Under the pieces are notes generated by a model, which was given only the letters and a program-made list of their open reading frames with translations, was not told where the DNA came from and did no database searches. Of a stretch of 64,000 nucleotides of DNA, positions 38,578-57,562 are shown piece by piece. The stretch covers positions 1,116,001-1,180,000 of the forward strand of contig NZ_CP034929.1 of the NCBI RefSeq assembly GCF_004014875.1, written 5' to 3'. The DNA is from Nocardioides yefusunii (lineage in GTDB: Bacteria > Actinomycetota > Actinomycetes > Propionibacteriales > Nocardioidaceae). The first letter of the stretch is position 1, and every line of letters starts with the position of its first letter. The position numbers were made by a program, and so were the translations under genes.

Positions 38578-39954
38578 ATGAGTGATGGTCCCGACCTCGT
38601 TGTCGCCGGTGCTGGCGGCGGACTGATTGCAGCCCTCCGGGCCGCACGCAGCGGACTCCAGGTCCTCGTCGTCGAGGCGAGCGAGCACTTCCGCAAGGGC
38701 AACAACACGGCAATCTCCACGGCGATGATCCCGGGCATCGGCTCGCGCTGGCAGGCCGAGGCCGGCGTCGACGACAGTGTCGAGCGTTTCGTCGGAGACG
38801 TCTCGAAGAAGACCAAGGGCATGGGTGACCTCGCGCTTGCCGGCACCCTGGCGCGCGTCTCGTCGCCGATGCTGGAGTGGATGGCCGACGACCTCGGGTT
38901 CCCGCTCTCCCTGGTGACCGACTTCCAGTACCCGGGTCACACCGCGTTCCGCTGCCACACCCTCGAGGGTCGCCACGGCAGCGTCCTGCTCGACCTCCTG
39001 GTGCGTGCTGTCGAGGCCGAGGAGAACATCGATCTCTTCGTCCCGGCCCGCCTGGTCGAGGTCCTCGTCGACGGGACCGAGAAGGTGGCTGGCGTCGTCA
39101 TCGAGATGCCCGACGGCTCGCGCGAGGAGATCCCGACCGACGCCGTCCTGCTCTCCACCAACGGTTACGCCGGCGACGCTGGTCTCGTGGGCCACCACAT
39201 GCCTGAGATCGCCACGGCCCAGTACCACGGCTCTGAGCACTCCAAGGGCGATGCCTTGCGCATCGGCGCCGGTCTCGGTGCCGAGGTCGCCTACCTGGAC
39301 GCCTACCAGGGTCACGCGGCGCTCTCCAAGCACGCCAGCACCCTCGTCGGCTGGGCCACGATCATGCACGGCGGCATCGTCCTGAACTCCGAGGGCAAGC
39401 GCTTCGGTGACGAGACCCAGGGCTACTCCGAGTTCGCTCCGCTCCTGGCTGCCCAGCCGGGCGCAGAGGGCTGGATCGTCGTCGACGCCGAGATCCACGA
39501 GCGCTGCCTCGCCTTCACTGACTACCAGCACTGCGTCGAGGCCGGAGCCGTTCTCTGGGCCGACGACGTGACCGGGCTCGCGGAGGTCACCAAGCTTCCC
39601 CTCGACGTCGTCGAGGCGCAGCTGGCGGCCGTTGCTGCCGTGAGCGCAGGGGAGGCCGAGGACGAGTTCGGCCGGACGTCGTTCCCGCACGCCATTGCGC
39701 CGCGTTACGCGGCGATCAAGATCATCCCGGCGCTGTTCCACAGCCAGGGTGGTCTGTGTGTCGACGAGCATGCCCGTGTCCGTCGTGCGAGCGGGGGAGT
39801 CATCGAGGGTCTCTACGCCTCCGGCGGCGCGGCCAACGGCATCTCGGGTCACGGCTCCAGCGGCTACCTCGCGGGCAACGGCCTGCTCCCGGCGCTCGGC
39901 CTGGCCTTCCTGGCTGCGGACCACGTCGCGGCGCGCGCCACCGTGACCGCCTGA
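38578..39954 (+). CDS. FAD-dependent oxidoreductase, KstD/fumarate-reductase type
   Basis: A 458-residue flavoprotein with the FAD motif GAGGG (11-15), a Glu-ending second strand (VLVVEASEH), and the C-terminal FAD-contact region ending GSSGYLAGNGLLPALGLAFLAA. The fold is that of the succinate dehydrogenase/fumarate reductase/3-ketosteroid dehydrogenase family, so it probably dehydrogenates or reduces a C-C bond next to a carbonyl. The steroid-type active-site tyrosines cannot be confirmed by eye. AGGAG lies eight bases before ATG. It opens the accessory catabolic island. Confidence 0.8.
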   Translation: MSDGPDLVVAGAGGGLIAALRAARSGLQVLVVEASEHFRKGNNTAISTAMIPGIGSRWQAEAGVDDSVERFVGDVSKKTKGMGDLALAGTLARVSSPMLEWMADDLGFPLSLVTDFQYPGHTAFRCHTLEGRHGSVLLDLLVRAVEAEENIDLFVPARLVEVLVDGTEKVAGVVIEMPDGSREEIPTDAVLLSTNGYAGDAGLVGHHMPEIATAQYHGSEHSKGDALRIGAGLGAEVAYLDAYQGHAALSKHASTLVGWATIMHGGIVLNSEGKRFGDETQGYSEFAPLLAAQPGAEGWIVVDAEIHERCLAFTDYQHCVEAGAVLWADDVTGLAEVTKLPLDVVEAQLAAVAAVSAGEAEDEFGRTSFPHAIAPRYAAIKIIPALFHSQGGLCVDEHARVRRASGGVIEGLYASGGAANGISGHGSSGYLAGNGLLPALGLAFLAADHVAARATVTA

Positions 39955-39988
39955 TCGGCCACCCGGTGGGGTGAGTGGGGGCCGTTCC

Positions 39989-40045
39989 GGGGTGCTTGCC
40001 GGGAGGGCGTGAGCCGCGGCTCCACGCCGTCCTGACAGGCACCCC
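39989..40045 (+). terminator. Long imperfect hairpin
   Basis: Outer arms GGGGTGC/GCACCCC and an inner stem GGCGTG-AGCC with GGCT-CCACGCC, 34 bases past the flavoprotein stop. Likely terminator. Confidence 0.55.
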
Positions 40046-40059
40046 GAATGGGGGTGAAG

Positions 40060-40077
40060 GTGTCATCTGTGTGACAC
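40060..40077. promoter_or_regulatory. Palindrome GTGTCA-N6-TGACAC
   Basis: Perfect 6-base arms with a 6-base centre, upstream of the methyltransferase promoter region. The binding protein is unknown. Confidence 0.4.
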
Positions 40078-40108
40078 TTCCTCGGCCCCCAGTTACCCAA
40101 CTGTTAAT

Positions 40109-40151
40109 TCAACGAGTGAATCGTTGACCAATCGTTGATTGGCGCTTAAAT
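40109..40151 (+). promoter_or_regulatory. Promoter and operator cluster of the methyltransferase/ABC unit
   Basis: TCAACGA-N5-TCGTTGA (40109-40127) is a perfect inverted repeat; a further TCGTTGA at 40132-40138 continues with an 11-bp period, and CCAAT-N5-ATTGG (40128-40142) overlaps it. TTGACC (40124-40129) and TAAATT (40146-40151), 16 bp apart, form a good sigma-A-like promoter covered by these sites. This suggests a tightly regulated operon. Confidence 0.6.
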
Positions 40152-40210
40152 TTCAGTTATCAACTTCCACGGGGCGGGGTGGGGGTTCCCAGATAGTGAT
40201 AGGAGTTGCG

Positions 40211-41263
40211 ATGGACATCGCACTGCGTCAGCGCCGCCGAGCCGGCCTGGAGTTCCTCGGATCGGTGCAGAACTACGCCGGCAAGACCCTCCAGGCAGCT
40301 GCGGGGGAGGCCTACCGTTCCGCCGTTCCCCAGCCGCCGCTCGACCTCGACTCGCGTCGGGCGTCCGTCTACGAGGTCCTCGAGGGCCACTCCGGCTGGG
40401 AGTTCGACCGCTTCCTCACCCGCTGGGTCGCCGAGGAGATCTACGTCCGTGCCCTCCCCGCGATCGAGGAGAAGCGTGACTCCGTCGAGGCCTGGCTGGA
40501 CGTGAAGAACCCGGTCGGTTCGCTCACGCTCAACCCCGAGATGGTGCCCCCGGCCTACTGGGAGGGCGGCTTCCACCTCGCTCCCGGCGGCTGGGACGGT
40601 CACGACCTCATGGGCCCCGCCATCTCCGAGCTCGTCTTCGCCTACGTCCTCACCCCCGGCGGTGTCGGCGCGGTCAAGGCCGGCGAGAACCTCATGAGCC
40701 AGCGCGACCAGGTCGCCGGCGAGACCCCGCGCACTGACTACAAGCACGTCGTCGAGCTCGGTGCTTCCTCGGGTCGCTTCACGTTCGCGCTCAAGCGTCG
40801 TCTCCCGAACTCCAAGATCACCGCTGTCGAGCTCTCCGCCTCCGCGCTGAAGCACGGTCACGCGCTGGCCAGCGACAAGGGCGTCGAGATCGACTTCGTC
40901 CACGCGCCCGCCGAGGCCACCGGCCTCCCGGACGGGTGCGCAGACCTCGTCGCCGCCTACACCCTCATGCACGAGGTGCCGGTCGAGGAGAACCTCAAGA
41001 TCGTCGCCGAGATGTTCCGACTCCTCGAGCCCGGCGGTCACCTGCTGATCTCCGAGATCGCTCCCTACGAGCACCAGGACGCCTTCCGCTCCGTCGTCCT
41101 GGACTGGGAGACCGAGAACCGCGGTGAGCCGTACTGGCGACAGGTGATGGACCACGACTGGGCTGCCGAGCTCGCAGCGGCAGGCTTCGTCGACATCGAG
41201 GCCTACGGCGTCGGCGGCGGCGTGTACCCCTGGGTCACCCGCGCCACCAAGCCCGCCGTCTGA
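40211..41263 (+). CDS. SAM-dependent methyltransferase 1 of the island
   Basis: A 350-residue protein. The C-terminal half is a class I methyltransferase: motif I VVELGASSGRF (about 180), acidic end of beta2 AVELSASALKHG, GLPDGCADLVAAYTLMHEV and the post-motif LLEPGGHLLISEI. The N-terminal about 170 residues are not a known domain to me and include WEGGFHLAPGGWDGHDLMG, a block also found in the second methyltransferase of this cluster. AGGAG is five bases before ATG. The methyl acceptor is unknown. A small helical protein gene follows. Confidence 0.85.
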   Translation: MDIALRQRRRAGLEFLGSVQNYAGKTLQAAAGEAYRSAVPQPPLDLDSRRASVYEVLEGHSGWEFDRFLTRWVAEEIYVRALPAIEEKRDSVEAWLDVKNPVGSLTLNPEMVPPAYWEGGFHLAPGGWDGHDLMGPAISELVFAYVLTPGGVGAVKAGENLMSQRDQVAGETPRTDYKHVVELGASSGRFTFALKRRLPNSKITAVELSASALKHGHALASDKGVEIDFVHAPAEATGLPDGCADLVAAYTLMHEVPVEENLKIVAEMFRLLEPGGHLLISEIAPYEHQDAFRSVVLDWETENRGEPYWRQVMDHDWAAELAAAGFVDIEAYGVGGGVYPWVTRATKPAV

Positions 41264-41347
41264 GCCTCGCCAGACGCAACCCCTGAGAACCGGGCTCGCA
41301 CCTTCCCCGAGACGAGCCCACCCCACTTTCCCCCCAGGAGGCCCGCC

Positions 41348-41653: not shown

Positions 41654-41795
41654 CTCGCTCCATCTGGGTCCCCGGTCCACCACGCCGGGGCCCAGAACCG
41701 CACCACCCGCTCGGGTCCCACCGTCGCGTCACCACACGCGTCGGCCCAGCCGAGCACCACTGACATCCCCCCACTGACATCCCGAGGTACCCCCC

Positions 41796-43298: not shown

Positions 43299-43325
43299 CG
43301 AGCTGATCCCAGCACCTCGGCGTGA

Positions 43326-43458: not shown

Positions 43459-44541
43459 ATGAGCACGGAGACCGTCCAGAGCGACACTCGCGCGCCCGGA
43501 CAGCTCATCGACCAGCGAGGTCGCGCCGAACTTGAGTTCGTCGTGGCCCTGCGCACCGGCATGACCAGCGCCCTGCGCAGCCAGGTCCGTCGTCGGATCG
43601 AGGAGAGCGGAGTCCTGCCGCAGGACACCACCGACATCGTTGCCCTCCGGGCAGCGGTCGACCCGGTCGTCGAGGCCACCGCCGCGCACCGCTTCCAGGC
43701 AGCCACGCTGCGCTGGAGCCGCGAGATCCAGACGCCGCGCGGCGTCGAGGCCTTCGACCGTCGTCGTGAGTTCTTCGAGTCCCTGGCGACCCCCGCTGGC
43801 CAGGTCGTCGACGTGGCCGGTGACGACGTCCCGCGCTACTGGACGTACGAGTTCCACGCCACCGAGGGTGGCTGGGACGGACACGACCACATGGGCTTCG
43901 TCCACCACGAGATGGTGTACCACTACCTGCTGACCAAGATCTACGGCGGCGGAGGTGACATCTTCGCCCTGCGTCGCAAGTTCGCCGACAAGGCGCCGAA
44001 GGAGTCCTACTCCTCGATCGTCGATCTGGGTTGCGGCACCGGTCAGTACACCCTGAAGCTGGCCGAGGCCTACCCCGAGGCCACGATCGTCGGCCTCGAC
44101 CTGTCCGCCTCCGAGGTCAACTACGCCCAGCGTCGCACCGAGGACGCCGACCTGACCGGGCGCGTCGAGTTCCGTCGCGCGGCGGCCGAGAAGACCGGCC
44201 TGCCGGACGGCTCCGCCGACCTGGTCACCTCCTACATCCTGCTCCACGAGATGCCCCCGCACGCCATCAAGGCGGTCTTCGCCGAGGCGTTCCGGCTTCT
44301 GGAGCCGGGTGGTCACGTCCACTTCGGTGACGTCGGCGCCTACGAGACCCGTTCGGGTTACGACGCCTGGAACGACGACTGGGACGCCGAGCACGGCAAC
44401 GAGCCGTGGTGGCGCCTGGCCGCGACCACCGACATCGCGGAGATCGCCCGTGAGGTCGGATTCGTCGACGTCGAGCGCTACGAGCTGCTGCCGGGTGGAC
44501 ACCCCATGGGCACCACTGCCCGCAAGCCCGAGGGAGCCTGA
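43459..44541 (+). CDS. SAM-dependent methyltransferase 2 of the island
   Basis: A 360-residue relative of methyltransferase 1: motif I IVDLGCGTGQYT (about 188), IVGLDLSASEVNYAQ, GLPDGSADLVTSYILLHEM and LLEPGGHVHFGDV. The N-terminal domain again holds YEFHATEGGWDGHDHMG. It sits between the binding protein and the ATPase genes of the transporter and overlaps the next start (TGATG), so it belongs to the same operon. GGAAAGG precedes ATG 43459. Acceptor substrate unknown. Confidence 0.85.
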   Translation: MSTETVQSDTRAPGQLIDQRGRAELEFVVALRTGMTSALRSQVRRRIEESGVLPQDTTDIVALRAAVDPVVEATAAHRFQAATLRWSREIQTPRGVEAFDRRREFFESLATPAGQVVDVAGDDVPRYWTYEFHATEGGWDGHDHMGFVHHEMVYHYLLTKIYGGGGDIFALRRKFADKAPKESYSSIVDLGCGTGQYTLKLAEAYPEATIVGLDLSASEVNYAQRRTEDADLTGRVEFRRAAAEKTGLPDGSADLVTSYILLHEMPPHAIKAVFAEAFRLLEPGGHVHFGDVGAYETRSGYDAWNDDWDAEHGNEPWWRLAATTDIAEIAREVGFVDVERYELLPGGHPMGTTARKPEGA

Positions 44542-45611
44542 TGAGCACTACCCCCACCACTGTCGGACTCGAGCCCGCTGCCCCAGCGGTCGAGCTCGAC
44601 GACGTCACCGTCCGCCTGCCCCGAGCCGGAGGAGACCTGCAGATCCTGCACGGCGTCTCCTTCAAGGTGCCGGCGGGTTCGGTCGTGGCCCTGGCCGGCG
44701 AGTCCGGCTCGGGCAAGTCGACCGCTGCACTCTCCCTGATGCGTCTGCTCCCGTGGGGCGCCCGCGTGGGCGGCCGCATCATGGCCGGCGATCGCGATGT
44801 CGCGGCCATGGGCAAGGAAGAACTGCGTCGCTTCCGTGCCTCGGAGGCCCGCATCATCCTGCAGGATCCGTGGTCCTCGCTGCACCCGATGAAGTCGGTC
44901 GGTGCGCAGATGGTCGAGTCGGCCCGATCTGCCGATCCGTCCCTGAGCAAGGAGCAGGCGCGCTCGCTGGCCGTCGAGATGATGGCCAAGGTCAGGATTC
45001 CTGACCCCGAGAGCCGTCTCAAGGCCTACCCGCACGAGATGTCCGGTGGGCAGCTGCAGCGGGTGCTGATCGCGATGGCACTGGTCGCCAAGCCGAAGCT
45101 GCTGCTCTGCGACGAGCCGACCACCGCGCTCGACGTCTCCACCCAGGCACAGATCCTGGACCTGCTGCGTGAGCTCAACCGCGAGATGGGTCTCACCATC
45201 GTCATCGCGACCCATGACCTCGACGTCATCGCCGGACTGGCCGACCGCCTGGTCGTCATGTACGCCGGGCGCGTCGTCGAGGAGGGCCCGACCAAGCAGG
45301 TCATGGCCAACCCGCAGCACCCCTACACCTGGGCGCTCCTGCAGACCGCGCCCAAGCACAACACCGGCCAGCGCATGCGCACCATCGAGGGTCGCCCCCC
45401 GGCTCTGGACGCGCTGCCGTCGGGCTGCTCCTTCGCCGCCCGATGCCAGTTCACCACTGACGAGTGCCACGGCACCCGTCCCGAACTGGTCCTCGTCGAT
45501 GAGTCCGCCGTCCACCGCACCGCCTGCCTCCGGGTCCAGGCCGCGGCCGGCGGCAAGCACCGCGCACCGGTGACCACCACCCCCGTCGAGACCGTGAGCG
45601 AGGAGGCCTGA
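44541..45611 (+). CDS. Oligopeptide-type ABC transporter ATPase (DppD/OppD)
   Basis: A 356-residue ATPase with Walker [10 protein letters not shown] (53-61), signature MSGGQLQR, Walker [13 protein letters not shown] and the H-loop ATHDLDV. The C-terminal oligopeptide/dipeptide extension has the cysteine pair of a Fe-S-like site ([13 protein letters not shown]). Pairs with the next gene. One-base overlaps on both sides show tight coupling. Confidence 0.95.
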
Positions 45612-46693
45612 TGACCGAGGCCACTACCGTCCGCACGGGCAAGACGCCGGTCGACCCGACCGACGTCGTGCTCGAGCTGGACGACGTCGTCCAGACCTTC
45701 AACGTCAAGGGCGGACTGAAGGTGCACGCCGTCAACGGCGTCTCCCTGAAGATCGCTCGTGGCGAGACCATCGGCCTGGTGGGGGAGTCCGGTTCGGGCA
45801 AGACCACCGTGGGCCGTGCGGCGCTGCGTCTCTACACCCCGACTTCGGGCACCATCACCTTCGAGGGTGAGGACGTCTCCAGGATCAAGGGCTCCAAGCT
45901 GCGCCGCATCCTGCGCAGCCGCTCTTCGATGGTCTTCCAGAACCCCACCACCTGCCTCAACGGCTACATGCGACTGGGCGAGATCCTGCGTGAACCGCTG
46001 GACATCCACAAGGTCGGCACTCCGGCGGAGCGCAAGCAGAAGGTCGCTGACATCCTCGACGTCATCGGTCTCGGGGCTGCCTACGCGGATCGCTACCCGC
46101 ACGAGCTCTCCGGCGGTCAGCGCCAGCGTGTCGGCATCGCCCGCGCGCTGATGCTCGACCCGTCGCTGATCGTGGCCGACGAGCCGACCGCCTCGCTCGA
46201 CGTCTCGGTCCAGGCGCAGATCGTCAACCTGCTCGAGGACATCCAGGCCGAGCGCGGTCTGTCCTACCTCTTCATCACCCACGACCTGGCTCTGGTGCGG
46301 CGCATCAGTCACCGGATCGCGGTCATGTACCTCGGACGCATCGTCGAGCTCGGTACCGCGGAGGACGTCTTCAGCCGTCCCCTGCACCCCTACACGACGT
46401 CGCTGGCCTCGATGGAGCTCGAGCCCGAGGACCGCATCATCCCGGAGGGCGAACTGCCCTCGCCGTCCAATCCGCCGAGCGGCTGTGCCTTCCACCAGCG
46501 TTGCCCGATCGCCCGTCCGCAGTGCGCCACCGAGCGTCCGGAGCTGCAGGAGACCACCGACGTGGTCTCGGGCCAGCCTCGTTCGTTCGCCTGCCACTTC
46601 CCGGGAGAACTTCAGTTGGCAGCAGCCGGAGACCACGGTCAGACCGTGCCTGCGCCGCTCCCCGTCGTCACCTCGGCCCCCTCGGCCATCTAG
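45611..46693 (+). CDS. Oligopeptide-type ABC transporter ATPase (DppF/OppF)
   Basis: A 360-residue partner ATPase with Walker [10 protein letters not shown] (58-66), signature [15 protein letters not shown], Walker [13 protein letters not shown] and H-loop ITHDLAL. The C-terminal Cys motif [15 protein letters not shown] matches the family. Its stop TAG forms part of the ribosome site (TAGGAGGA) of the following small gene. Confidence 0.95.
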
Positions 46694-46703: not shown

Positions 46704-46997
46704 ATGCCTGGACACGCCCAAGACCGCCCGCGCTACATCGACGGTGCCGTCGACGCCGAGACCCTCTACCGGCTCCTCCTCGAGGTGACCAGTGAGCTCT
46801 CCGTGACCCGTGACCGTCTCGTCCTGCTCGAGACGGTGCTCGCCGACCACGGTCTGGTGAACGAGGAGAAGCTGGAACTCGTCGCCTTCCGCGACGACGT
46901 CGCCGCTCGACTGGACGCCGACCGCAAGCTGCTCGTTCAGCGTCTCGCCGCGGCTGTGCCCCCGGTCGACGCCGAGCCCGTCGTGGACGCTGGGTGA
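46704..46997 (+). CDS. Small helical partner protein 2
   Basis: A 97-residue, mostly helical acidic protein with LLLEVTSELSVTRDRLVLLE, aligning with the small protein at 41348 through the EV-SEL and DR-LE positions. Inserted between ATPase and permease genes, it is in one operon with methyltransferase 2. AGGAGGA precedes ATG, and the permease start overlaps its stop (GTGA). Likely a paired component with the methyltransferase; function unknown. Confidence 0.7.
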   Translation: MPGHAQDRPRYIDGAVDAETLYRLLLEVTSELSVTRDRLVLLETVLADHGLVNEEKLELVAFRDDVAARLDADRKLLVQRLAAAVPPVDAEPVVDAG

Positions 46998-48953: not shown

Positions 48954-49727
48954 TCAGCCCAGAGCGGCAGCGATCTCGTCGGCGGCGTCGCGCACCAGGC
49001 GGATGATCTCCGCTCGGCGCGTCTCGCCGGTGCGGTAGACGGGGGCCGCGGTTCCGATGGCGGCGATCACGGTCTCTCCGACGCGGATCGCAGCGGCACA
49101 ACCCCAGATGCCCTCGTCGACCTCCTCGAAGCTCTCGGTCCATCCGCGTTCGGCGACCTCGTTGAGTGCGGTGGGAGTGAGCAGGGCGGCACGGTCGGGC
49201 GAGAGTTGACCAACGACACGCTCGACGTAGCGACGGCGTTCCGCGGCGGGCATGGAGGAGAGCAGCACGCGGGACAGCGATCCGGCGTGCAGGTCCATCG
49301 CCTGGCCCCGGTCGAACTGCAGACGCACCGGGCGACGCGACTCCACCCGGTCGACGCAGTAGACGGCACCGCCGCCACGGCGAGCGACCAGGACGGTCTC
49401 GTCGAACTCGGTGCGGAGCCGCTCCATCACCGGTACCGAGACTTCGGCCAGCGGCCCCTGGGCGGCTTCGGCTGCTCGGGCCAGGCCCACGGCCAGGTCG
49501 GTGACGCGGTAGCTCTTGCCGCCGGCGCCGTCGATCAGACCGACCTCGCGCAGGAGCCCGAGGTAGCGGTAGGCCGAGGTGACCGAGAGGTGGAGCTCTC
49601 CCGCCAGTTCGGCCACCGTCCAGGTGGGCCGTTCCTCGGTGAAGCACAACAGCATGTGCAGCAGCTTCCGGCTGCTGCTCGCGCCCTGCACACGCGGGGT
49701 GTCGGGACGAGTGTCGTCCTGGGTCAT
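48954..49727 (-). CDS. IclR-family transcriptional regulator
   Basis: A 257-residue regulator with a winged helix (about 20-80: WTVAELAGELHLSVTSAYRYLGLLREVGLI in parts) and the IclR effector domain (VPVMERLRTEFDETVLVARR; HAGSLSRVLLSSMP; CAAAIRVGETVIAAIGTAAPVYR). It is divergent from the nitrilase-led operon and probably controls it, using a pathway compound as effector. GGAGGAG precedes ATG 49727. Confidence 0.92.
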   Translation of the reverse strand: MTQDDTRPDTPRVQGASSSRKLLHMLLCFTEERPTWTVAELAGELHLSVTSAYRYLGLLREVGLIDGAGGKSYRVTDLAVGLARAAEAAQGPLAEVSVPVMERLRTEFDETVLVARRGGGAVYCVDRVESRRPVRLQFDRGQAMDLHAGSLSRVLLSSMPAAERRRYVERVVGQLSPDRAALLTPTALNEVAERGWTESFEEVDEGIWGCAAAIRVGETVIAAIGTAAPVYRTGETRRAEIIRLVRDAADEIAAALG

Positions 49728-49800
49728 GGATCTCCTCCGAGAGGTCCGGGTTCTGGCGGTGGCCTGGTGCTCACCGACGTCCGGAGCTGAGAACAAGTTT

Positions 49801-49814
49801 TCCACCGATGTGGA
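49801..49814. promoter_or_regulatory. Candidate IclR operator 1
   Basis: TCCAC-N4-GTGGA, preceded by TT, sharing TTTCCAC with the palindrome over the nitrilase start. Lies in the divergent intergenic region. Confidence 0.45.
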
Positions 49815-49852
49815 GAAGAAGCGCAGCCTGAGCGCCACATTGCGCGAAGTGG

Positions 49853-49881
49853 TTGCGCACTTTTTCACATCTCATTAATCT
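49853..49881 (+). promoter_or_regulatory. Promoter of the nitrilase-led operon
   Basis: TTGCGC and TAATCT separated by 17 bp, in an AT-rich stretch 34 bases before the start codon. Confidence 0.6.
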
Positions 49882-49904
49882 GTTGCCACATCATAAAAGG
49901 AGCA

Positions 49905-49921
49905 TTTCCACATCATGGAAA
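49905..49921. promoter_or_regulatory. Candidate IclR operator 2 over the start codon
   Basis: Perfect TTTCCA-N5-TGGAAA palindrome spanning the ATG of the nitrilase gene, downstream of the promoter. Binding here would act as a roadblock. CACATC repeats surround it. Confidence 0.5.
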
Positions 49922-51654
49922 CCAAGGTCTTGAATTCCCGAGAGAACCGCAGCGCCACCAGCGTGCGCGTGGGCACTGCCCAGTTCTTCTCCGGGACGGA
50001 CGTGGCGGCCAACGCCGAGCTCGTCGCCGACTACCTCCGCGTCGCTGCGGAGAACGGCGTGCAGTTGGTGGTCTTCCCCGAGAACTCCAACCGGGTCCGC
50101 GACTACGCCGACCGCGACGAGTGCTGGGAGAAGAGCGAGCGCCTCGACGGTGCGTTCGTCACCCGTGTGCGTGAAGCGTGCAAGGAGCACGGTGTCCACG
50201 CCGTCGTCGGTGTCGACGTGTCCGAGGACGTCAAGCCGATCGTGCGCATCGCCTCGATCCTGATCGGTCCTGACGGCGAGATCATCCACGTCCACCACAA
50301 GACGGTCTTCTGGGACTACGAGTACACGCTGTTCACCGCCGGTGAGAAGCCGCTCGAGGTCGTCGACACCGCGCTGGGCAAGATCGGTCTGCTCATGTGC
50401 GCCGACGGCATCGTCCCCGACGTGCCGCGCGTCCTGGGCACCCTCGGCGCCCAGATCTTCTGCAACTCCCTGAACTCCCGTGGTCCCGACGAGGTCCGCG
50501 TCCACGTGCCGCTGCGCACCCTGGAGAACCACGTCTGGCACATCTCCTCCAACACCGTCGGCGGTCCCGCCGACGCGTGGCCCTGGATGGGGGGCTCCCA
50601 GATCGTGCACCCGCGCGGCGAGGTCCTCGTCGGCGCCGGCGAGGAGTCCGAGGGCATGGTCTGGGCCGACATCGAGGTCGCCGTCGCCGACGACAAGGAC
50701 GTCCCCGGTTTCGCCGACGTCATGAAGTGGCGCCGCACCGACCTGTACGCCGACCTGATGACCCCGCACGCCGACCTCCCGGTCGCCGTGATGCTCGGCC
50801 CGGTCGACCCGGAGATGCCGGCCAAGCCGCTCGACGTCGTCACCCTGCAGGTCTCCTGGTTCCACAACCAGGACTACACCGTCACCCGCGCCGTCGCGCA
50901 GATCGCCTACGCCGCCAAGCAGGGTGCGAAGTTCGGCGTCCTGCCCGAGCTGTTCTGCTTCAAGCCCGGCGAGGTCGCAGCCGACCCCGCCAAGGCAGCT
51001 GCCTACTCCGAGGGCGTGCTGGAGACGATCAAGGCCGCGTGCGCCGAGCACTCCTTCTGGACCGTGGTGAACCTGGTCGAGAAGTCCGAGGCCGGTTTCC
51101 ACTCCACCGCCTACCTGGTGGACGAGAACGGCGTCGTGCGCCACACCTACCGCAAGACCCACCTCGACGCGAACGACGCCTGGGCCGTCGCCGGTGACGA
51201 GATCGGTGTCGCCGACGTCGAGATCGGCCGCATCGGCATCATGCTCGGTACTGAGGTCTGGCTCCCCGAGGTGGCGCGCCTGCTCACCCTGCGCGGCGCC
51301 GAGCTCATCGCGCACCCCACCAACTGGGACCGCCGTGAGGCAGCCGAGTGTGCCGCTGTCGAGCGCACCGAGGAGAACCGGGTGCACCTGCTCTCGGTCA
51401 ACCGCCTCGACTCGCCCGTCGCGATCGGTTCGCAGATCGTGCGTTCCGACCCGTTCGTCCCGGGCCAGCCGGTCGCGCTCATGCGCTACCCGTCTGCCCA
51501 GTGGACCCGCCCCGGTTTCGAGGAGCAGCTGTTCCAGCGCCTCGACCTGCGCGAGTCCCACAACAAGATGATGGGCTTCCACCTTGACCCGGTGGGCTCC
51601 CGTCAGCCGAACCTGTACGGCCCGCTCCTGCAGGCTGCCACCGGAGGACAGTGA
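49915..51654 (+). CDS. Tandem double nitrilase-family protein, second domain lacking Cys
   Basis: A 579-residue fusion of two carbon-nitrogen hydrolase domains. Domain 1 (about 15-275) has the complete Glu-Lys-Cys triad: E56 (FPENSN), K129 (HHKTVFWDYE), C162 (LLMCADG). Domain 2 (about 285-570) keeps E345 and K414 but has G445 in the Cys position (IGIMLGTEVW), so it should be inactive and perhaps structural or ligand-binding. Nitrilases hydrolyse nitriles, amides or carbamoyl groups; the substrate is unknown. First gene of an IclR-controlled operon; overlaps the next gene (TGATG). Confidence 0.88.
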   Translation: METKVLNSRENRSATSVRVGTAQFFSGTDVAANAELVADYLRVAAENGVQLVVFPENSNRVRDYADRDECWEKSERLDGAFVTRVREACKEHGVHAVVGVDVSEDVKPIVRIASILIGPDGEIIHVHHKTVFWDYEYTLFTAGEKPLEVVDTALGKIGLLMCADGIVPDVPRVLGTLGAQIFCNSLNSRGPDEVRVHVPLRTLENHVWHISSNTVGGPADAWPWMGGSQIVHPRGEVLVGAGEESEGMVWADIEVAVADDKDVPGFADVMKWRRTDLYADLMTPHADLPVAVMLGPVDPEMPAKPLDVVTLQVSWFHNQDYTVTRAVAQIAYAAKQGAKFGVLPELFCFKPGEVAADPAKAAAYSEGVLETIKAACAEHSFWTVVNLVEKSEAGFHSTAYLVDENGVVRHTYRKTHLDANDAWAVAGDEIGVADVEIGRIGIMLGTEVWLPEVARLLTLRGAELIAHPTNWDRREAAECAAVERTEENRVHLLSVNRLDSPVAIGSQIVRSDPFVPGQPVALMRYPSAQWTRPGFEEQLFQRLDLRESHNKMMGFHLDPVGSRQPNLYGPLLQAATGGQ

Positions 51655-53801
51655 TGACTGAGACCGACATCCCCACCCTGCTCGCGATGCGGGACAACCC
51701 GCCGTTCGAGAAGATGCACACCGTCGCCATCTCCGGCATGGGCCCGGTCGGCATGGTTGCCGCCCTGCGCCTGGCCCAGATGGGTCACGACGTCATCGTC
51801 TTCGAGGCGCTCGGCGGGCTCTCGGCGGAGGCGCGTGCCTCGACGTTCCACCCGTCCTCGCTGGAGCTGCTCGAGCAGCTCGGCGTCGTCGACGAACTGC
51901 ACGCCGTCGGTCTCAAGGCTCCGATCTACCAGTACCGCGAGCGTTCCGGCGCGGTGCTGTCGCAGATGGACATGACGCTGCTGGCAGGGGAGACCAAGTA
52001 CCCCTACCGCCTGCAGAGCGAGCAGAACAACCTCACCGAGATCATCCTGCGCAAGCTGCAGGAGATGCCGAACGTGACGCTGCGCTTCAACTCGCCCGTC
52101 GCCCGCGTCGAGCGCGGCGACCGTCACGTCCGGATCCACCTCGAGGGTGGTCACCGCGACGAGCCGATCCTGGCCCAGTGGATGATCGCCGCCGACGGTG
52201 CCGCCTCGCCGACCCGCAAGTCGCTCGGCATCGCCTTCGAGGGCACGACGTACGACGACCGCTTCCTGGTCATCTCCACCACGCACGAGTTCCGTGAGGA
52301 CCTCGGCGAGGACCTGGCCTACGTCTCGTACATCTACGACCCCACCGAGTGGGGCGTCCTGCTCCGCACGCCCAACCACTGGCGTGCGCTCTTCCCGGTC
52401 ACCGACGCAGAGACCGACGAAGAGGTCATGTCGGCCGAGAACATGGAGGCGCGCATGCAGCGCCTCAACCCCAAGGACACGCCGTACGAGATCGTCCACC
52501 GCAACGTCTACGCGGTGAACATGCGATCGGCCTCCACGTACGCCTCGGGCCAGATCCTGCTGGCCGGCGACGCCGCGCACTGCAACAACCCGCTCGGCGG
52601 CATGGGCATGAACTCCGGCATCCACGACGCATGGGCCGCGGTCGAGGTGATCAACGCCGTCCTCACCGAGGGAGTCGACGCCACGCACGCCGCCTCGCTC
52701 TACTCCGAGCTGCGTCGTGACGCTGCGATCAACCACGTCCAGGCGCGTGCGCAGAAGAACTACGACAACATGCGTCAGGACGACGACGGCGCCCGCGCGG
52801 AGCAGGCCGACCAGCTCTCCGCGCTGGACCGCGACCTGTTCGAGAAGCGCGAGCACCAGCGCAACTCGGCCATGTTCACCTCGCTGCGTCTCACCCTGGG
52901 TCGCCTCAAGCGGGAGCTGCACGCCGTCAAGGCGCCGAACTTGTCCGGTGGCCAGAAGCTCTCGCAGCTCCTGGGCCAGGGCCCGGTCTACGCGGCCGGT
53001 GCCTACGACGCGGTCTCGGCGAAGCTGGTCGAGAACTCCGGTTTCAAGGCCGTCTACGTCCCCGGGTCCGCGGTGTCGGCCTCGGTGATGGGTCAGCCCG
53101 ACCTGGGGTACATCGGCCTGGCCGAGATGGCCGAGGCCGTGCGTCGCATCACCTCGGCGACCACCCTCCCGGTGATCGTCGACGGTGACACCGGCTACGG
53201 CGGCGTCCTGCAGGCCGGCGAAGCCGTGCGTCGCCTCGAGCAGGTCGGCGCGGCTGCGGTGCAGTTCGAGGACCAGCTGGCCCCGAAGCGCTGCGGTCAC
53301 CTGGCCGGCAAGGAGCTCGTCGAGCTCGACGAGATGGTCGCGAAGATCAAGATCGCCGTCGCCGAGCGCACCTCCGCGGTGATCATCGCTCGCACCGACG
53401 CCAAGGGCGTCGACGGTTTCGACGCCGTCCTGGAGCGTGCCGCCGCGTACGCCGAGGCCGGTGCCGACCTCGTCTTCGCCGAGGGCGTCTACTCCGCCGA
53501 GGAGCTCACCGCACTGCGCGACGCCGCCCAGGGTCGCCCGCTGATGGTGAATCTCTCCGAGGCCGGTGACAGCTCCGCGCTGCCGCCGATCGAGCTCGCC
53601 CACGAGGCCGGCGTCGGTCTGCTGATCCACCCGGTCTCGGCGGTCCTCGCCGCGGCCGAGTCGATCGCGGCCACCTACCAGCGTCTGCTCGCCACCGGTA
53701 CGTCCGGCAAGGGCCAGGAGGACTGGAAGGCATTCACCACCGTGCTGGGCCAGGACGAGCAGCTGGAGCGGGCCGCGCAGCTCGCCCAGGGCCAGGCCTG
53801 A
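51654..53801 (+). CDS. FAD monooxygenase fused to isocitrate lyase/PEP mutase-family domain
   Basis: A 715-residue two-enzyme fusion. Residues 1-about 425: a PHBH-fold aromatic hydroxylase with GMGPVG near 25-30, the DG-type motif AADGAASPTRKSLG and the FAD motif GDAAHCNNPLGGMGMN. Residues about 429-690: an isocitrate lyase/PEP mutase/methylisocitrate lyase-like barrel with GAYDAVSAKL, VDGDTGYGG, the active-site KRCGH (about 545-549) and IIARTDAKG. The first part probably oxygenates a ring, the second cleaves a C-C bond of a later acid. The fusion is in frame with no linker defect. ATG 51654 has GGAGGA. Confidence 0.88.
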   Translation: MTETDIPTLLAMRDNPPFEKMHTVAISGMGPVGMVAALRLAQMGHDVIVFEALGGLSAEARASTFHPSSLELLEQLGVVDELHAVGLKAPIYQYRERSGAVLSQMDMTLLAGETKYPYRLQSEQNNLTEIILRKLQEMPNVTLRFNSPVARVERGDRHVRIHLEGGHRDEPILAQWMIAADGAASPTRKSLGIAFEGTTYDDRFLVISTTHEFREDLGEDLAYVSYIYDPTEWGVLLRTPNHWRALFPVTDAETDEEVMSAENMEARMQRLNPKDTPYEIVHRNVYAVNMRSASTYASGQILLAGDAAHCNNPLGGMGMNSGIHDAWAAVEVINAVLTEGVDATHAASLYSELRRDAAINHVQARAQKNYDNMRQDDDGARAEQADQLSALDRDLFEKREHQRNSAMFTSLRLTLGRLKRELHAVKAPNLSGGQKLSQLLGQGPVYAAGAYDAVSAKLVENSGFKAVYVPGSAVSASVMGQPDLGYIGLAEMAEAVRRITSATTLPVIVDGDTGYGGVLQAGEAVRRLEQVGAAAVQFEDQLAPKRCGHLAGKELVELDEMVAKIKIAVAERTSAVIIARTDAKGVDGFDAVLERAAAYAEAGADLVFAEGVYSAEELTALRDAAQGRPLMVNLSEAGDSSALPPIELAHEAGVGLLIHPVSAVLAAAESIAATYQRLLATGTSGKGQEDWKAFTTVLGQDEQLERAAQLAQGQA

Positions 53802-53816
53802 CACAGACCCGAGGGC

Positions 53817-53846
53817 GACGGACGCCGGCCCACGCCGGCGTCCGTC
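53817..53846 (+). terminator. Hairpin within the island operon
   Basis: Perfect 13-bp stem (53817-53829 with 53834-53846), 4-base loop, 15 bases past the fusion gene. It may separate two transcription units or attenuate. Confidence 0.65.
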
Positions 53847-53954
53847 TCCCCAGCAGCAGCACCCAGCACGACCCCAGACCACGCGGCCCGGCCCCGAGAG
53901 CCGGTTCGCGTCATGCAGAACCACCCAGGCAACACAGAGTGTGAGGAGCACGCC

Positions 53955-54722
53955 ATGCCCGTCGGTACCGGTGCCGTCATCACCCCGCAGGACAAGAAGG
54001 GCAAGAAGTTCGCCCTGGTCCTGCCGTCCACCAACACGTCGGTGGAGCGCGAGCTCCACGACCTCCGTCCGCAGGACTGCTCCTGGCACACCGGACGCAT
54101 CATGATCGAGGCCCCCGCCCTCGACTCCGCGGACGCCTTCGGCGCCTTCCGCGAGGGCCTCAACGCCTCCATGCCGTCGGCTCTCGAGATCGTCATGACC
54201 TGCGACCCCGACTACATCGTCATGGGCATGTCGGCCGAGACCTTCTGGGGCGGCGTCGCCGGCAACGCCGAGTTCGAGCAGCGCGTGCGCGACCTCACCG
54301 GTCGCGAGGTCACCACCGGTGCGACCGCCGCCGGCGAGGCCCTCAAGGCCTTCGGCGCCAAGAAGATCGGCATCATCACCCCCTACCAGCCCGTCGGTGA
54401 CGAGCAGGTCGTGGCCTACTTCACCGAGCTCGGCTTCGAGGTCGCCGGCATCACCGGTCTCTGCTCGGAGTCCGCGACCTCGATCGCGACCGAGTCCCCG
54501 GAGAAGCTGCGCGAGGCGTTCCTCTCCGTCAACGGCGACGACGTCGACGCACTGATCCAGTGCGGCACCAACCTCGAGTGTGCCGCCACCGCGGCTGAGC
54601 TCGAGAAGGAGATCGGCAAGCCGGTCATCGCCATCAACATCGCCACCGCCTGGCACGCCTTCCGCGTCAACGGCATCGACGACAAGATCTCCGGCTACGG
54701 CCGCCTCCTCGAGGAGCACTGA
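53955..54722 (+). CDS. Maleate isomerase/arylmalonate decarboxylase-like protein
   Basis: A 255-residue member of the Asp/Glu racemase superfamily. VLPSTNTSVERELHD matches the N-terminal P-S-x-N-T signature of maleate cis-trans isomerases. The C-terminal catalytic Cys is C203 (LIQCGTNL), but the first Cys of two-Cys members is replaced (VMGMSAETFW), as in arylmalonate decarboxylase, which uses one Cys. It may isomerise, racemise or decarboxylate a dicarboxylic acid. GAGGAG six bases before ATG 53955. Confidence 0.82.
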   Translation: MPVGTGAVITPQDKKGKKFALVLPSTNTSVERELHDLRPQDCSWHTGRIMIEAPALDSADAFGAFREGLNASMPSALEIVMTCDPDYIVMGMSAETFWGGVAGNAEFEQRVRDLTGREVTTGATAAGEALKAFGAKKIGIITPYQPVGDEQVVAYFTELGFEVAGITGLCSESATSIATESPEKLREAFLSVNGDDVDALIQCGTNLECAATAAELEKEIGKPVIAINIATAWHAFRVNGIDDKISGYGRLLEEH

Positions 54723-54727
54723 GCACC

Positions 54728-55054
54728 ATGGCTTTCAACCACGTGGGTCACCTGACCCTTGCTGCTGACGTCACCGACGAGCAGGTCGCCGGCATCGTCG
54801 ACGGTCTCGTCGCCCTGTACGGCCAGATCGACGGTCTCCTCTCGGCCCAGGTCGTGCGCGACGCCGGCCTCACCGAGGGCAACGCGAACGTGCGTTTCCA
54901 CATGCGCTTCGACACCCAGGCGTCGTGGGAGGCGTACCGCACGCACCCCGCGCACGTCGCCGTGGTGAAGAACCACATCGGTCCGGTCCTCGGCTCGAAG
55001 GCGTTCGTCCAGTACGACGACGCCGCCGTGGTCTCGTCCGGAGACCTTGCGTGA
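54728..55054 (+). CDS. Dabb (stress-responsive A/B barrel) domain protein
   Basis: A 108-residue ferredoxin-like alpha/beta domain: FNHVGHLTLAADVTDEQVAGIV, then NVRFHMRFDTQASWEAYRTHPAHVAVVKNHI in blocks, the H-P-x-H-x-x-V pattern typical of Dabb proteins. Family members can be small hydrolytic or cyclising enzymes or binding proteins. Five bases after the isomerase gene, and its stop overlaps the amidohydrolase start (GTGA). Confidence 0.85.
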   Translation: MAFNHVGHLTLAADVTDEQVAGIVDGLVALYGQIDGLLSAQVVRDAGLTEGNANVRFHMRFDTQASWEAYRTHPAHVAVVKNHIGPVLGSKAFVQYDDAAVVSSGDLA

Positions 55055-55728
55055 CCAGCACCGAACAGTCCGGCGCCGCGCCGCTGCGTGGATCCTCGCT
55101 CGCCGAGGACTACGCAGCGGCCGGTTTCGGCGGCGGCCTCCAGCTGGGCGCCCGCCCTGCCCTGGTCCTGATCGACCCCGCTCGCGCCTACGTCGACCCC
55201 GAGTCGTCGCTGTACGCGGGCGTCGAGGCTTCCCAGGCCGGGATGATCGAGCTGCGTGAGGCGGCCCGTGCCGCAGGCATCCCGGTGTTCCTCACCCGGG
55301 TCCTCTACGACAACGCATCCGGCACCCTGGGTGGTCTCTTCTTCCAGAAGGTTCCTGCCCTGGCTGCGTTCGTCGAGGGCAACCCGATGGGCGAGTGGGC
55401 CCAAGGGCTCGAGCCCGGCGACGACGAGACGGTCGTGACCAAGCACTACCCGAGCGCGTTCGCAGGCACTTCGTTCGCGGCGGCCCTCAACGCGCTGCGG
55501 GTGGACACCCTGCTGATCGGTGGTTGGTCGACCAGCGGCTGCGTGCGCGCCACCGCCCTCGACGCTCTCCAGTCCGGTTTCGTGCCGGTGGTGGTGCGTG
55601 AGGCCGTCGGTGACCGCCACGTCGACCCGCACGAGTCGAACCTCCGTGACATCGCGGCCAAGATCGGCGAAGTCCGGTCCATGGCCCAGGTCAAGGAGTA
55701 CCTGTCCGAGGTGGCAGGACAGGCATGA
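55051..55728 (+). CDS. Isochorismatase-family amidohydrolase
   Basis: A 225-residue cysteine hydrolase with an intact catalytic triad D42 (LVLIDPARAY), K131 (VVTKHYPSAF), C164 (STSGCVRATA). The N-terminal extension and sequence style resemble N-carbamoylsarcosine amidase and maleamate amidohydrolase (NicF) rather than true isochorismatase. It probably releases ammonia from an acid amide in the pathway. Overlaps genes on both sides (GTGA and ATGA), so it is tightly coupled. Confidence 0.87.
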   Translation: MTSTEQSGAAPLRGSSLAEDYAAAGFGGGLQLGARPALVLIDPARAYVDPESSLYAGVEASQAGMIELREAARAAGIPVFLTRVLYDNASGTLGGLFFQKVPALAAFVEGNPMGEWAQGLEPGDDETVVTKHYPSAFAGTSFAAALNALRVDTLLIGGWSTSGCVRATALDALQSGFVPVVVREAVGDRHVDPHESNLRDIAAKIGEVRSMAQVKEYLSEVAGQA

Positions 55729-57518
55729 GCACCGGTCCTCACCAGGACGCACAGCATGTCGGCCACGGCGAGGGGGACGCACCCCGGACCGTGGCCGACG
55801 GCGTTCGTGCCGCCTTCGACGCCCTCGACGTTCCTGACCATGCCCACGACGACGCCTGGGTGACCCGGGGCCGTCCGACGGGGACGGCCGGTCCGGCGAT
55901 CTTCCTCGTCCACCCCACCACCCACCGCAGCGACACCGACTGGTTCGGTGACCCTGAAGACGCCGGCGTGCGCAGTGCGGTGGAGGAGGTGGTCACAGCA
56001 CAGGCAGCCGCGTTCCCCGGCGAGCTCTGGGCTCCGCACTACCGGGCCGCCTCCACCCGGGCCTTCGCCGAGCGTGACGCGGGCGGGGAGGAGGCCTACG
56101 ACCTCGCGCATCGTGACGTGGCGGCTGCCTTCACCCAGTTCCTCGCCGACGAGTCACGTGCCCCCGGGCCGCGGGGACCGTTGGTGCTGGTGGGCCACAG
56201 CCAGGGTGCTCGACACGTGCGTCAACTGCTGCTCGACCACGTCGAGCACCCCGGCATCGCCGAACGTCTCGTCGCGGCCTACGCGATCGGCATCGACCTC
56301 GAGGTGGACGACCCTGTCGTGGCGTTGACGCCCCTCGCCGCGGGCGTCGACGACGTGGGAGTGCTGGTCGCCTACCAGGCAGGCGTCGCGGACGCGCCCG
56401 CTGCCTCCGTCCTGCGTGGTCTCTGCGTCGCCCCCACGGCGCTCGGCTCGCCGGAAGGCGTCTCCCGTGACGGTGGTGTGCTGCTGCTCTCCCCGGAACG
56501 GGTGGGGGAGTGGCACACGACCGCACTGTCGGACGGTCGCCTGCACCATGCCGAGGTGCAGGTGCTGGCCGACGTGCTCCGTGCCGATGTCGCCCGGCGC
56601 ACGCACGCGTGGCACACGGCCCGCCGCGACGGCTCCCCCCACGCCGTCGCCCCAGCCGCCCCCACCGAGGTGGAGCGCTGGCCCGGCGTCGTGGGACGCC
56701 TCGTCGGAGTGCAGCGTGCTGACGGTGCCCGCCTGGGGTACGCGCACGTCGTCGACCTCCCGTCCGCCGCGCGCGCCGCCGACGACGCGACGCCCCTCGT
56801 CCTGCTGCACAAACTGGGTGGCTGGGTCGCGGAGTGGCGCGAGGTCGCCACTGCACTCGCCCACGGACGCCGTGTCGTCGTCCTGGACCTTCCCGGACAC
56901 GGCGGCTCCACCCGTGAGGGGAACGCCCCGTGGGTGCACTGGCCCGACGTCTCCGCGGCCGAGGTCCTCGACGTCCTCGATCAGCTCGGCCTCGATCGGT
57001 TCCACCTCATGGGGTGCTCGATGGGTGGCGTGGTCGGGATGCACGTCGCTGCTGCGCATCCTGACCGGGTGGTCTCGTTGACGGTGGTGGCGACCTCGGC
57101 CACTCCGGCGTTGAGCGCCCGCCGTACGCGCGAGATCGACGACATGGTCCGACCCGGTTTCGGTCCCGGTTGGATGCCGCGGCCCGGACAGAACGCGCGG
57201 GCCGGAACATCCGACCCGCGCATCGCCGAGGACCAGAACGCTTCCCGTGCCCGCGGTGGGCGCTGGGTCCGGGCCAGCGAGCGCGGTGTCGGTCTGGCTG
57301 GCGTGGAGCAGTTGTTGTCGCGGATCACCGTGCCGGTGCTCTCGCTCAACGGTGAGAACGCCGGATATCGGAGCTACGACGCTCGGGTTGCCGAACTGCT
57401 CGCCGACGTCACGTTCGAGGTCGTGCCTGACGCCGGGTCCTTCGTGCACCAGGAACGCCCCGCCGACGTGGTCGCGGCCTGGGAGCGGTTCGTCGCCGAC
57501 GTCGCCGCACGGGACTGA
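55725..57518 (+). CDS. DUF3089-alpha/beta hydrolase double fusion
   Basis: A 597-residue protein with two alpha/beta-hydrolase-fold parts. Residues about 45-310: DUF3089-like (IFLVHPTTHRSDTDWFG; VLVGHSQGARH with S159). Residues about 320-597: a classical hydrolase (PLVLLHKLGGWVAEW; LMGCSMGGV with S432; final His in GSFVHQERP). The second part is in the class of ring-cleavage-product hydrolases such as N-formylmaleamate deformylase. Last gene of the operon; a strong terminator follows. Confidence 0.82.
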   Translation: MSTGPHQDAQHVGHGEGDAPRTVADGVRAAFDALDVPDHAHDDAWVTRGRPTGTAGPAIFLVHPTTHRSDTDWFGDPEDAGVRSAVEEVVTAQAAAFPGELWAPHYRAASTRAFAERDAGGEEAYDLAHRDVAAAFTQFLADESRAPGPRGPLVLVGHSQGARHVRQLLLDHVEHPGIAERLVAAYAIGIDLEVDDPVVALTPLAAGVDDVGVLVAYQAGVADAPAASVLRGLCVAPTALGSPEGVSRDGGVLLLSPERVGEWHTTALSDGRLHHAEVQVLADVLRADVARRTHAWHTARRDGSPHAVAPAAPTEVERWPGVVGRLVGVQRADGARLGYAHVVDLPSAARAADDATPLVLLHKLGGWVAEWREVATALAHGRRVVVLDLPGHGGSTREGNAPWVHWPDVSAAEVLDVLDQLGLDRFHLMGCSMGGVVGMHVAAAHPDRVVSLTVVATSATPALSARRTREIDDMVRPGFGPGWMPRPGQNARAGTSDPRIAEDQNASRARGGRWVRASERGVGLAGVEQLLSRITVPVLSLNGENAGYRSYDARVAELLADVTFEVVPDAGSFVHQERPADVVAAWERFVADVAARD

Positions 57519-57525
57519 CGTGTGC

Positions 57526-57562
57526 GGTTCTCGGGGTTCTCCTCAGGGGAACCCCGAGAACC
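57526..57562 (+). terminator. Island operon terminator
   Basis: Perfect 14-bp stem (57526-57539 with 57549-57562), 9-base loop, seven bases after the stop. Confidence 0.75.

Follow-up and report, generated by a model that had tools for sequence, protein, structure and literature searches.

A block of genes in the soil bacterium Nocardioides yefusunii, at 38578-57518 of a window of 64,000 nucleotides, raises the question of whether it encodes a single catabolic pathway and, if so, for which compound. The window is the whole stretch that we analysed (G000:C1:1116001-1180000, where G000 is the 3.32-Mb genome, one contig; G and L numbers are our handles for genomes and loci). The genes run in the order FADox-MT1-sm1-SBP-MT2-dppD-dppF-sm2-dppB-dppC-(IclR, reverse)-NIT2-FMO-ICL-ISO-Dabb-ICH-ABH, followed by a DUF4870 gene (Table 1). 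A first-pass annotation had proposed a candidate undescribed catabolic island with a dedicated importer. All the gene classes that it named are present by family matches, and the block still looks like such an island; the enzyme families are known, and we found no bacterial gene cluster of this kind described in the literature searched, which did not extend to preprints and most subscription papers. Our answer is that the two halves of the block are one system, and that this system very probably constitutes one undescribed catabolic pathway. The island probably degrades a ring-shaped nitrogen compound, possibly fragments of chlorophyll or heme pigments.

Linkage of the two halves and their site in the genome

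A scan of genome contigs with the MT1 alignment gave 20 loci: 15 actinobacterial orthologues (L021-L035, 53-76% identity), a second copy from Kineosporia, less similar than the first (L037, 40%), and four loci from proteobacterial metagenome-assembled genomes (MAGs; L036, L038-L040, 36-39%). Relatives of MT1 were also found in 17 plasmid records, all below 60% identity, of which 4 cover at least 80% of the query. Sixteen genomes were counted by one rule (L022-L035, G196 and G054, the genome of L021). In all 16 clusters sm1 lies beside MT1. The substrate-binding protein SBP and MT2 are each present in 15, the remaining importer genes and sm2 in 14 (L030 and L033 stop at the contig end), IclR in 15, NIT2 in 14, FMO, ICL and ISO in 12 each, ICH also in 12 (counting a distant match in L025 that is not at the usual place), Dabb in 10, FADox in 9 and ABH in 2. 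Every miss of the importer, NIT2, FMO, ICL or ISO falls in a locus that ends early (L022, L024, L025, L030, L031, L033), and the loci without FMO, ICL and ISO (L022, L024, L025, L031) run out at the end of the examined stretch or contig. G054 has no Dabb, and neither ICH nor Dabb was seen in L030.

The first-pass annotation had suggested looking for the gene set in other genomes, where lack of co-occurrence would mark the halves as unrelated neighbours. Instead, both halves recur together wherever the flanks reach far enough, the right half being found in every counted cluster with sufficient flanks. In Nocardiopsis, and in Actinomadura and its relatives, one half is inverted relative to the other and FMO and ICL are encoded by two genes, and the halves are still linked, so the linkage survives rearrangement. 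Close homologues are carried by Nocardioides dubius, N. sp. W7 and N. gilvus.

Other arrangements were observed. G196 has a second copy of only ISO, FMO-ICL and IclR (L043, G196:C1:2472000-2491999), its FMO-ICL being 90% identical to that of the window, and G284 has a broken copy with partly matching neighbours (L049). In Kineosporia babensis, molybdenum-hydroxylase-type genes (CoxS/CoxM/CoxL-like by eye) stand shortly after the importer (L023, 18202-21050), which suggests a hydroxylation step in that version. A 58-kb region of Novosphingobium resinovorum pSA1 (about 1.075-1.133 Mb; L051, L053) holds three MT, three sm, two ICL and two ICH genes, together with a double nitrilase, HyuA/HyuB, LeuC/LeuD-like proteins, an FMO, GPH transporters and a TonB receptor; this alphaproteobacterium has the same set of tools.

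The block has been inserted next to tRNA-Ala. It is flanked on the left by a phosphoglycerate-mutase-family gene (PGM, 36852-37502) and on the right by leuS (58265-60799). This interval measures 20.8 kb in the window. In two close relatives, G054 and G284, whose leuS is 83 and 87% identical, it is about 2.0 and 0.9 kb long, respectively, and the site holds a single tRNA-Ala and no island. G054 carries its own island copy on another contig, and in G196 the island lies at the window's site, between PGM and leuS. In the tandem tRNA array of the window, units 1 and 2 are identical and unit 3 is at 74%. The family matches of the block include no recognisable integrase. At the right edge of the block, matches to the tRNA unit are of chance length only, with no sign of a second tRNA end. 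The island had been credited with its own regulators and terminators. One regulator, IclR, does lie in the block, but its terminator-like sites (6 versus 4.6 expected from shuffled sequence, standard deviation 2.2) are not above chance; nor are promoter-like sites (1 versus 0.7 expected, standard deviation 0.9).

Methyltransferases, partner proteins and catalytic residues

As the earlier annotation had it, the left half contains two related methyltransferases and two related small proteins: MT1 and MT2 are paralogues with 35% identity over 343 residues, and sm1 and sm2 align with 27% identity. MT1 has the Rossmann fold of class I S-adenosylmethionine (SAM) methyltransferases and Methyltransf domains above the Pfam cut-off, from which the use of SAM is predicted. 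Among the 50 PDB matches listed for its AlphaFold model (pLDDT 86.4), which are other class I methyltransferases, none exceeded a TM score of 0.5 by query length. For the methyltransferase (METHYLTRANSFERASE) and its small partner, an N-terminal motif FHL(T/A)(P/T)GGW(D/E/N)GH is common to MT1 and its relatives, and MT2 has a similar stretch, FHATEGGWDGHD. The small proteins gave no Pfam or NCBIfam match at E 0.001, and in their alignment E, DR and LE-type positions are invariant or nearly so. Genes for sm adjoin most MT genes in the proteobacterial loci viewed (an impression rather than a count), and sm2 is a neighbour of dppB, within the operon to which MT2 also belongs, in 14 of the 16 clusters, the other two being truncated. 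Found from Actinobacteria to Novosphingobium plasmids, the methyltransferase/small-protein pair is an unexplained catabolic module.

The full Dpp-type importer that had been annotated is indeed complete, with SBP_bac_5, two oligo_HPY ATPases and two permeases all matched to the Dpp/Opp type. The NCBIfam matches of SBP, MT and FADox lie below curated cut-offs and hence indicate no substrate. A motif GISGHG(A/S)SGYLAGNG is present in six FADox rows from five genomes.

In the right half, the first-pass annotation had recognised hydrolase, monooxygenase, isomerase and amidase classes and likened them to NicD, NicC, NicE and NicF of maleamate-type ring degradation. The classes are present, but the monooxygenase is actually a fusion of FMO to a PEP_mutase/ICL-family domain of the 2-methylisocitrate-lyase type, which had been overlooked. 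Of the solved structures, PnpA is nearest to its FMO domain, followed by HspB (6-hydroxy-3-succinoylpyridine 3-monooxygenase). The best solved relatives of the ICL half are 2-methylisocitrate lyases, and 2,3-dimethylmalate lyase (3fa3) matched at 4.5e-41. The motif K(R/K)CGH of the 2-methylisocitrate lyase group is present in the window fusion, in three ICLs of the sister cluster type described below and in the G158 and Novosphingobium copies; the score of 249 bits versus a PrpB curated cut-off of 354.4 is below the equivalog level. A domain of this type points to an alkyl-dicarboxylate end, and what we infer most firmly from these sequences is that the pathway would end with an ICL-type cleavage of an alkylated malate.

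The N-half of NIT2 keeps the E-K-C triad of the nitrilase superfamily in 16 of 16 covering rows (17 aligned), and the C-half has lost the nucleophilic Cys in 15 of 15, so that activity is expected of only one half. The matches of NIT2 include N-carbamoylputrescine amidase and beta-ureidopropionase, below their curated cut-offs. In ICH, a putative NicF-like amidase, the isochorismatase-type D-K-C residues are retained (K and C in 15 of 15 rows, D in 14 of 14 covering rows). The ISO alignment has 18 rows, 17 covering each site, in which L023 and L037 are one locus and the broken G284 copy enters as two pieces. Of the two maleate-isomerase (NicE) cysteines, which we take to be catalytic, the first is absent in 17 of 17 rows (MSAETF) and the second position is Ala in 11 and Cys in 6, the window among the latter; an AMDase-type Gly-x-Ser loop is kept by our reading of the alignment. 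Lacking the Cys pair, ISO is not a conventional NicE. ABH is found in only 2 of the 16 other loci, both Nocardioides, and thus does not show the conservation that a NicD role would call for. The proposed parallel with NicC, NicD, NicF and NicE is weak and, in the form proposed, unsupported, given these two proteins and the ICL domain. No NicX-type dioxygenase was recognised in the block, the genome at large not having been searched for one. The Dabb protein gave only weak matches to solved structures.

Table 1. Features of the island and its left edge, in window coordinates
Feature	Position	Strand	Basis or detail
Three tandem 293-bp units, one tRNA-Ala(GGC) each; insertion's left edge	37582..38460	+	tRNAs 37631-37705, 37924-37998, 38217-38291
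FADox, FAD_binding_2 flavoprotein, fumarate-reductase/flavocytochrome c-like, 458 aa	38578..39954	+	Pfam; PDB 1qo8 E 6e-40
MT1, 350-aa class I SAM methyltransferase whose N-terminal domain is helical	40211..41263	+	start set by alignment
sm1, small partner protein of MT1, 101 aa	41348..41653	+	adjacency and alignment
SBP_bac_5 substrate-binding lipoprotein, 500 aa	41796..43298	+	
MT2, second methyltransferase, MT1 paralogue, 360 aa	43459..44541	+	
DppD-type ATPase	44541..45611	+	ABC_tran and oligo_HPY
DppF-type ATPase	45611..46693	+	ABC_tran and oligo_HPY
sm2, small partner protein, sm1 homologue, 97 aa	46704..46997	+	alignment
DppB-type permease	46994..47932	+	
DppC-type permease	47929..48867	+	
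IclR-family regulator, divergent from NIT2, 257-304 aa (uncertain start codon)	48954..49868	-	
NIT2, double nitrilase-superfamily hydrolase	49915..51654	+	E-K-C in N-half; C-half without Cys
FMO-ICL fusion	51651..53801	+	FAD_binding_3 ~24-413; 2-methylisocitrate-lyase/PEP-mutase domain ~436-690, KRCGH
ISO, AMDase/maleate-isomerase superfamily, Cys pair missing	53913..54722	+	
Dabb-family protein, 108 aa	54728..55054	+	
ICH, isochorismatase-family amidase, GTG start	55051..55728	+	D-K-C triad
ABH, DUF3089 and alpha/beta-hydrolase fusion	55725..57518	+	only in Nocardioides versions

A sister cluster and the proposed pathway

The same genome holds a sister cluster at about 1.599-1.617 Mb of G000:C1, with paralogues of the window's NIT2 and ISO. 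In or close to it are three proteins of the RCCR/FDBR (bilin reductase) superfamily together with a Rieske oxygenase (L088/L089, G000:C1:1595000-1634999). Membership of PF06405 (RCC reductase) is clear from the scores, which are 46.8 bits for L072 and 46.1 and 54.8 for the two G000 copies, versus a cut-off of 24.9; a second sister protein has the FDBR fold. By eye, the region also has an apparent branched-chain-type ABC importer; we found no published account of what this region does. Two further candidates were set aside: the sister hydrolase as a chlorophyllase (19.5 versus a 26-bit cut-off for the Chlorophyllase Pfam family; not used as evidence) and the sister SDR as a chlorophyll b reductase, a likeness by eye for which the PDB search gave generic SDRs. 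Staygreen (PF12638) matched 0 of 294 genomes and none of the controls, and is uninformative.

PF06405 was above its cut-off in 23 of 294 family genomes, and the window fusion was matched in 25 of 294 (E 1e-60, three candidates per genome scored), the two draws being taken as identical since their handles agree. All 23 are among the 25 (Fisher 3e-32, kinship ignored); the other two are G284, matched through the ICL part of its broken copy, and G130, whose FMO relative is 37% identical. In 20 of the 23, an FMO and an RCC_reductase gene are 2.3-3.0 kb apart, and ICL is beside that FMO in all 16 of these that were checked (G057, G170, G182 and G268 fall outside the check). The exceptions are G000 and G196, with FMO more than 440 kb away, and G054, with the two on different contigs. 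These three have the complete MT island, and their sister clusters lack FMO/ICL between two aldehyde dehydrogenases, with no detectable remnants. In G158 the sister cluster is intact, and the right half of the island is present beside another MT/importer set. If these four are taken as the carriers of a window-type fusion, the sister FMO is missing in 3 of 4 versus 0 of 19 others (p 0.002), but the three appear to be kin. In G000 no other FMO relative reaches 1e-15, G196 has its second window-type fusion and a 33% relative, and G054 has two at 30-31%; by sequence, then, the only close FMO relatives in the three exceptions appear to be window-type fusions. Outside the family, four actinobacterial MT-cluster genomes have PF06405; the sister clusters of three of them (G319, G320 and G321) have FMO with no ICL gene seen, and the stretch from the fourth, G317, starts too late to tell.

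A third locus is connected to the island through its relatives. In Rhodococcus IEGM 1379 (L022), genes for allantoinase/dihydropyrimidinase-like, MmgE/PrpD, Cyclase and CaiB proteins lie at most 10 kb from MT1, with FADox among them. A matching set, 71, 52, 56 and 66% identical, is found at 1.55 Mb in G000 (L060/L061, G000:C1:1538000-1565000), along with CitE-like, NMT1-type importer, CN_hydrolase and aldehyde dehydrogenase (ALDH) genes. The allantoinase-like gene adjoins FADox in Nocardiopsis and Actinocorallia; in Kineosporia and Rhodococcus CH91 a gene pair, one of them polysaccharide-deacetylase-like, takes its place, and in Novosphingobium HyuA/HyuB stand in a similar place. We read these as exchangeable, putative cyclic-amide hydrolases. 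The excerpt available of PMC4437985 places dihydropyrimidinase, allantoinase and imidase in one cyclic amidohydrolase family. The allantoinase-like protein has NCBIfam allantoinase as its best match, at 226.9 bits versus a cut-off of 631, and the PrpD-family protein scores 68.2 versus 950 bits for PrpD. In Novosphingobium (L051), aconitase-family LeuC/LeuD-like genes adjoin ICL.

We favour the catabolism of linear-tetrapyrrole-derived pyrroles, ending as an alkylmalate that would be cleaved to pyruvate and an acid; the tetrapyrrole link, which comes from the sister cluster and the shared FMO/ICL step, we hold at slightly below an even chance. With a similarly guarded expectation, the island would import and degrade an alkyl-substituted N-heterocycle and work together with the 1.599-1.617 Mb cluster, which would handle a linear tetrapyrrole (a bilin or chlorophyll catabolite). 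More tentatively still, the island, the 1.55 Mb allantoinase/PrpD locus and the 1.60 Mb cluster might jointly mineralise chlorophyll or heme pigments whose ring has been opened, yielding pyruvate, ammonia and small acids, the two methyltransferase/partner pairs acting on imported pyrrolic fragments. Between these readings lies another, in which a single lower pathway would be fed by both the sister cluster and the MT island, each admitting different pyrrolic or lactam compounds.

In the favoured pathway, the Dpp-type importer would take up a pyrrolic fragment, which MT1/sm1 and MT2/sm2 may methylate. The FMO domain would oxidise the pyrrole or hydroxy-heterocycle to the lactam or maleimide level, and the ring might then be opened by a cyclic-amide hydrolase, ABH in G000 or the allantoinase/dihydropyrimidinase-like enzyme from 1.55 Mb. 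NIT2 and ICH would take off the amide nitrogen. Hydration to a 2-methyl-3-alkylmalate could be the work of the PrpD/MmgE hydratase at 1.55 Mb or, as perhaps in Novosphingobium, of the LeuC/LeuD-like aconitase family. The ICL domain would split this product to pyruvate and an alkyl acid, which may enter CoA metabolism (CaiB, CitE, ALDH). Every heme or chlorophyll pyrrole bears a methyl group; a maleimide derived from it would therefore give a 2-methylmalate skeleton, the type of substrate of a methylisocitrate-type lyase. Chlorophyll is degraded in very large amounts every year. In plants the breakdown leads to linear phyllobilins, according to the portion of PMC5853334 available, and our literature search, in which some queries were too broad to tell, found no description of microbial genes that take phyllobilins further. 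The clusters are a directly testable gene set.

Several points weigh against this pathway. A shared fold does not show function, and at the position of plant RCCR Glu154, presumably a catalytic residue, the partner is Ala in 8 of 8 bacterial sequences (position derived by hand). The sister Rieske oxygenase consists of Rieske and VanA_C, with no PaO match at the E limits used. FADox seemingly has Tyr, by eye, at the position of the Arg which we take to bind substrate in fumarate reductases. PF06405 is absent in 10 of the 14 other actinobacterial MT-cluster genomes (present in 4) and was found in none of 6 proteobacterial records (MAGs or plasmids), which are incomplete genomes. Since most MT clusters outside Nocardioides come from genomes without RCC_reductase, the compound that the island itself acts on may be something other than a tetrapyrrole. 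With the apparent close kinship of G000, G196 and G054, their missing FMO/ICL could go back to a single event. Finally, partners of the allantoinase, PuuE, ureidoglycolate-lyase and HyuAB types would suit a cyclic ureide equally well.

This last point leads to the first of the alternatives, catabolism of a cyclic ureide with a pyrimidine-, hydantoin- or flavin-like ring, in which allantoinase/hydantoinase ring hydrolases would be followed by NIT2 as an N-carbamoyl hydrolase and ICH as a ureidoacrylate-type amidase. The ring hydrolases linked in relatives (allantoinase/dihydropyrimidinase-like, polysaccharide-deacetylase-like, HyuA/HyuB, Ureidogly_lyase), the N-carbamoylputrescine amidase and beta-ureidopropionase matches of NIT2 and the NMT1-type importer at 1.55 Mb are all consistent with it. 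We consider it unlikely, however, because neither the allantoinase-like protein nor NIT2 reaches the curated cut-off of a named enzyme, and the bilin-reductase-fold cluster and the methylisocitrate-type lyase would be left unexplained; imides and lactams fit too, as imidases belong to the same family (PMC4437985, in the part available).

Somewhat less likely is the maleamate-type degradation of a hydroxypyridine proposed in the first-pass annotation, with a ring-opening monooxygenase in place of NicX. The nearness of the FMO domain to PnpA and HspB, the D-K-C residues of ICH and the superfamily of ISO agree with such a route, but ISO is without its Cys pair, ABH is scarce among the other loci and the conserved ICL domain has no place in it. 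Onium elimination, by which the two methyltransferases would successively methylate a substrate S or N into a leaving group (two S-methylations giving dimethyl sulfide, for example) before the remaining enzymes degrade the skeleton, would agree with the finding that MT2, from inside the importer operon, accompanies MT1 in 15 of the 16 clusters (the other cluster being truncated). The sulfonium methyltransferase DsyB is among the nearest folds of MT1, although as a generic match, and the family matches of the block include no known onium-cleaving lyase family and no sulfur-handling gene, so we regard this route as improbable. A biosynthetic or uptake/metallophore cluster, which a Dpp/Nik-type importer with methyltransferases might suggest, is very improbable: no synthetase, carrier protein or exporter is among the block's family matches, and catabolism would fit the C-C lyase, the amidases and control by IclR as well as the CoA-acid genes that are linked in relatives. 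That the halves are unrelated neighbours is hardly credible, for although inversion is possible and in G158 the right half adjoins a different MT/importer set, it pairs there again with MT/sm and an importer, as in the counted clusters. Biotin, riboflavin, thiamine, ergothioneine and creatinine routes were considered and dropped, no gene for their known steps having been recognised in the block; for biotin, the literature searched gave nothing relevant either.

Comparison with known systems

The maleamate pathway (NicC/NicX/NicD/NicF/NicE) is a bacterial route for nicotinate. The island resembles it in having an FAD monooxygenase, an isochorismatase-family amidase, a member of the maleate isomerase superfamily and an alpha/beta hydrolase, and differs in the fused methylisocitrate-type lyase, the ISO without a Cys pair, the double nitrilase, the methyltransferases and the lack of a recognised NicX in the block. 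BioC/BioH is a case of methyl-ester masking; here too a class I methyltransferase lies near an alpha/beta hydrolase (L038, L052), whereas the island methyltransferase is accompanied by a small partner protein.

With plant PAO/RCCR and the ferredoxin-dependent bilin reductases, the sister cluster has in common its three RCCR/FDBR superfamily proteins and the Rieske oxygenase in or near it. Unlike plant chlorophyll breakdown, which by the part of PMC5853334 available leads to phyllobilins, the gene set described here lacks the PaO domain and the RCCR catalytic Glu, and it has amidases and a C-C lyase.

With the methylcitrate cycle (PrpD/PrpB), the proposed pathway has in common the PrpD-family protein at 1.55 Mb and the KRCGH lyase domain, but both score well below the curated cut-offs and the island lyase is fused to a monooxygenase. 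Nicotinate fermentation in Eubacterium barkeri ends with dimethylmaleate hydratase and 2,3-dimethylmalate lyase. The island has an oxygen-dependent monooxygenase and a different ring and entry steps, but its end would be similar: hydration of an alkylmaleate, for which the LeuC/LeuD-like genes beside ICL in Novosphingobium (L051) are candidates, and then cleavage by a lyase of the ICL superfamily.

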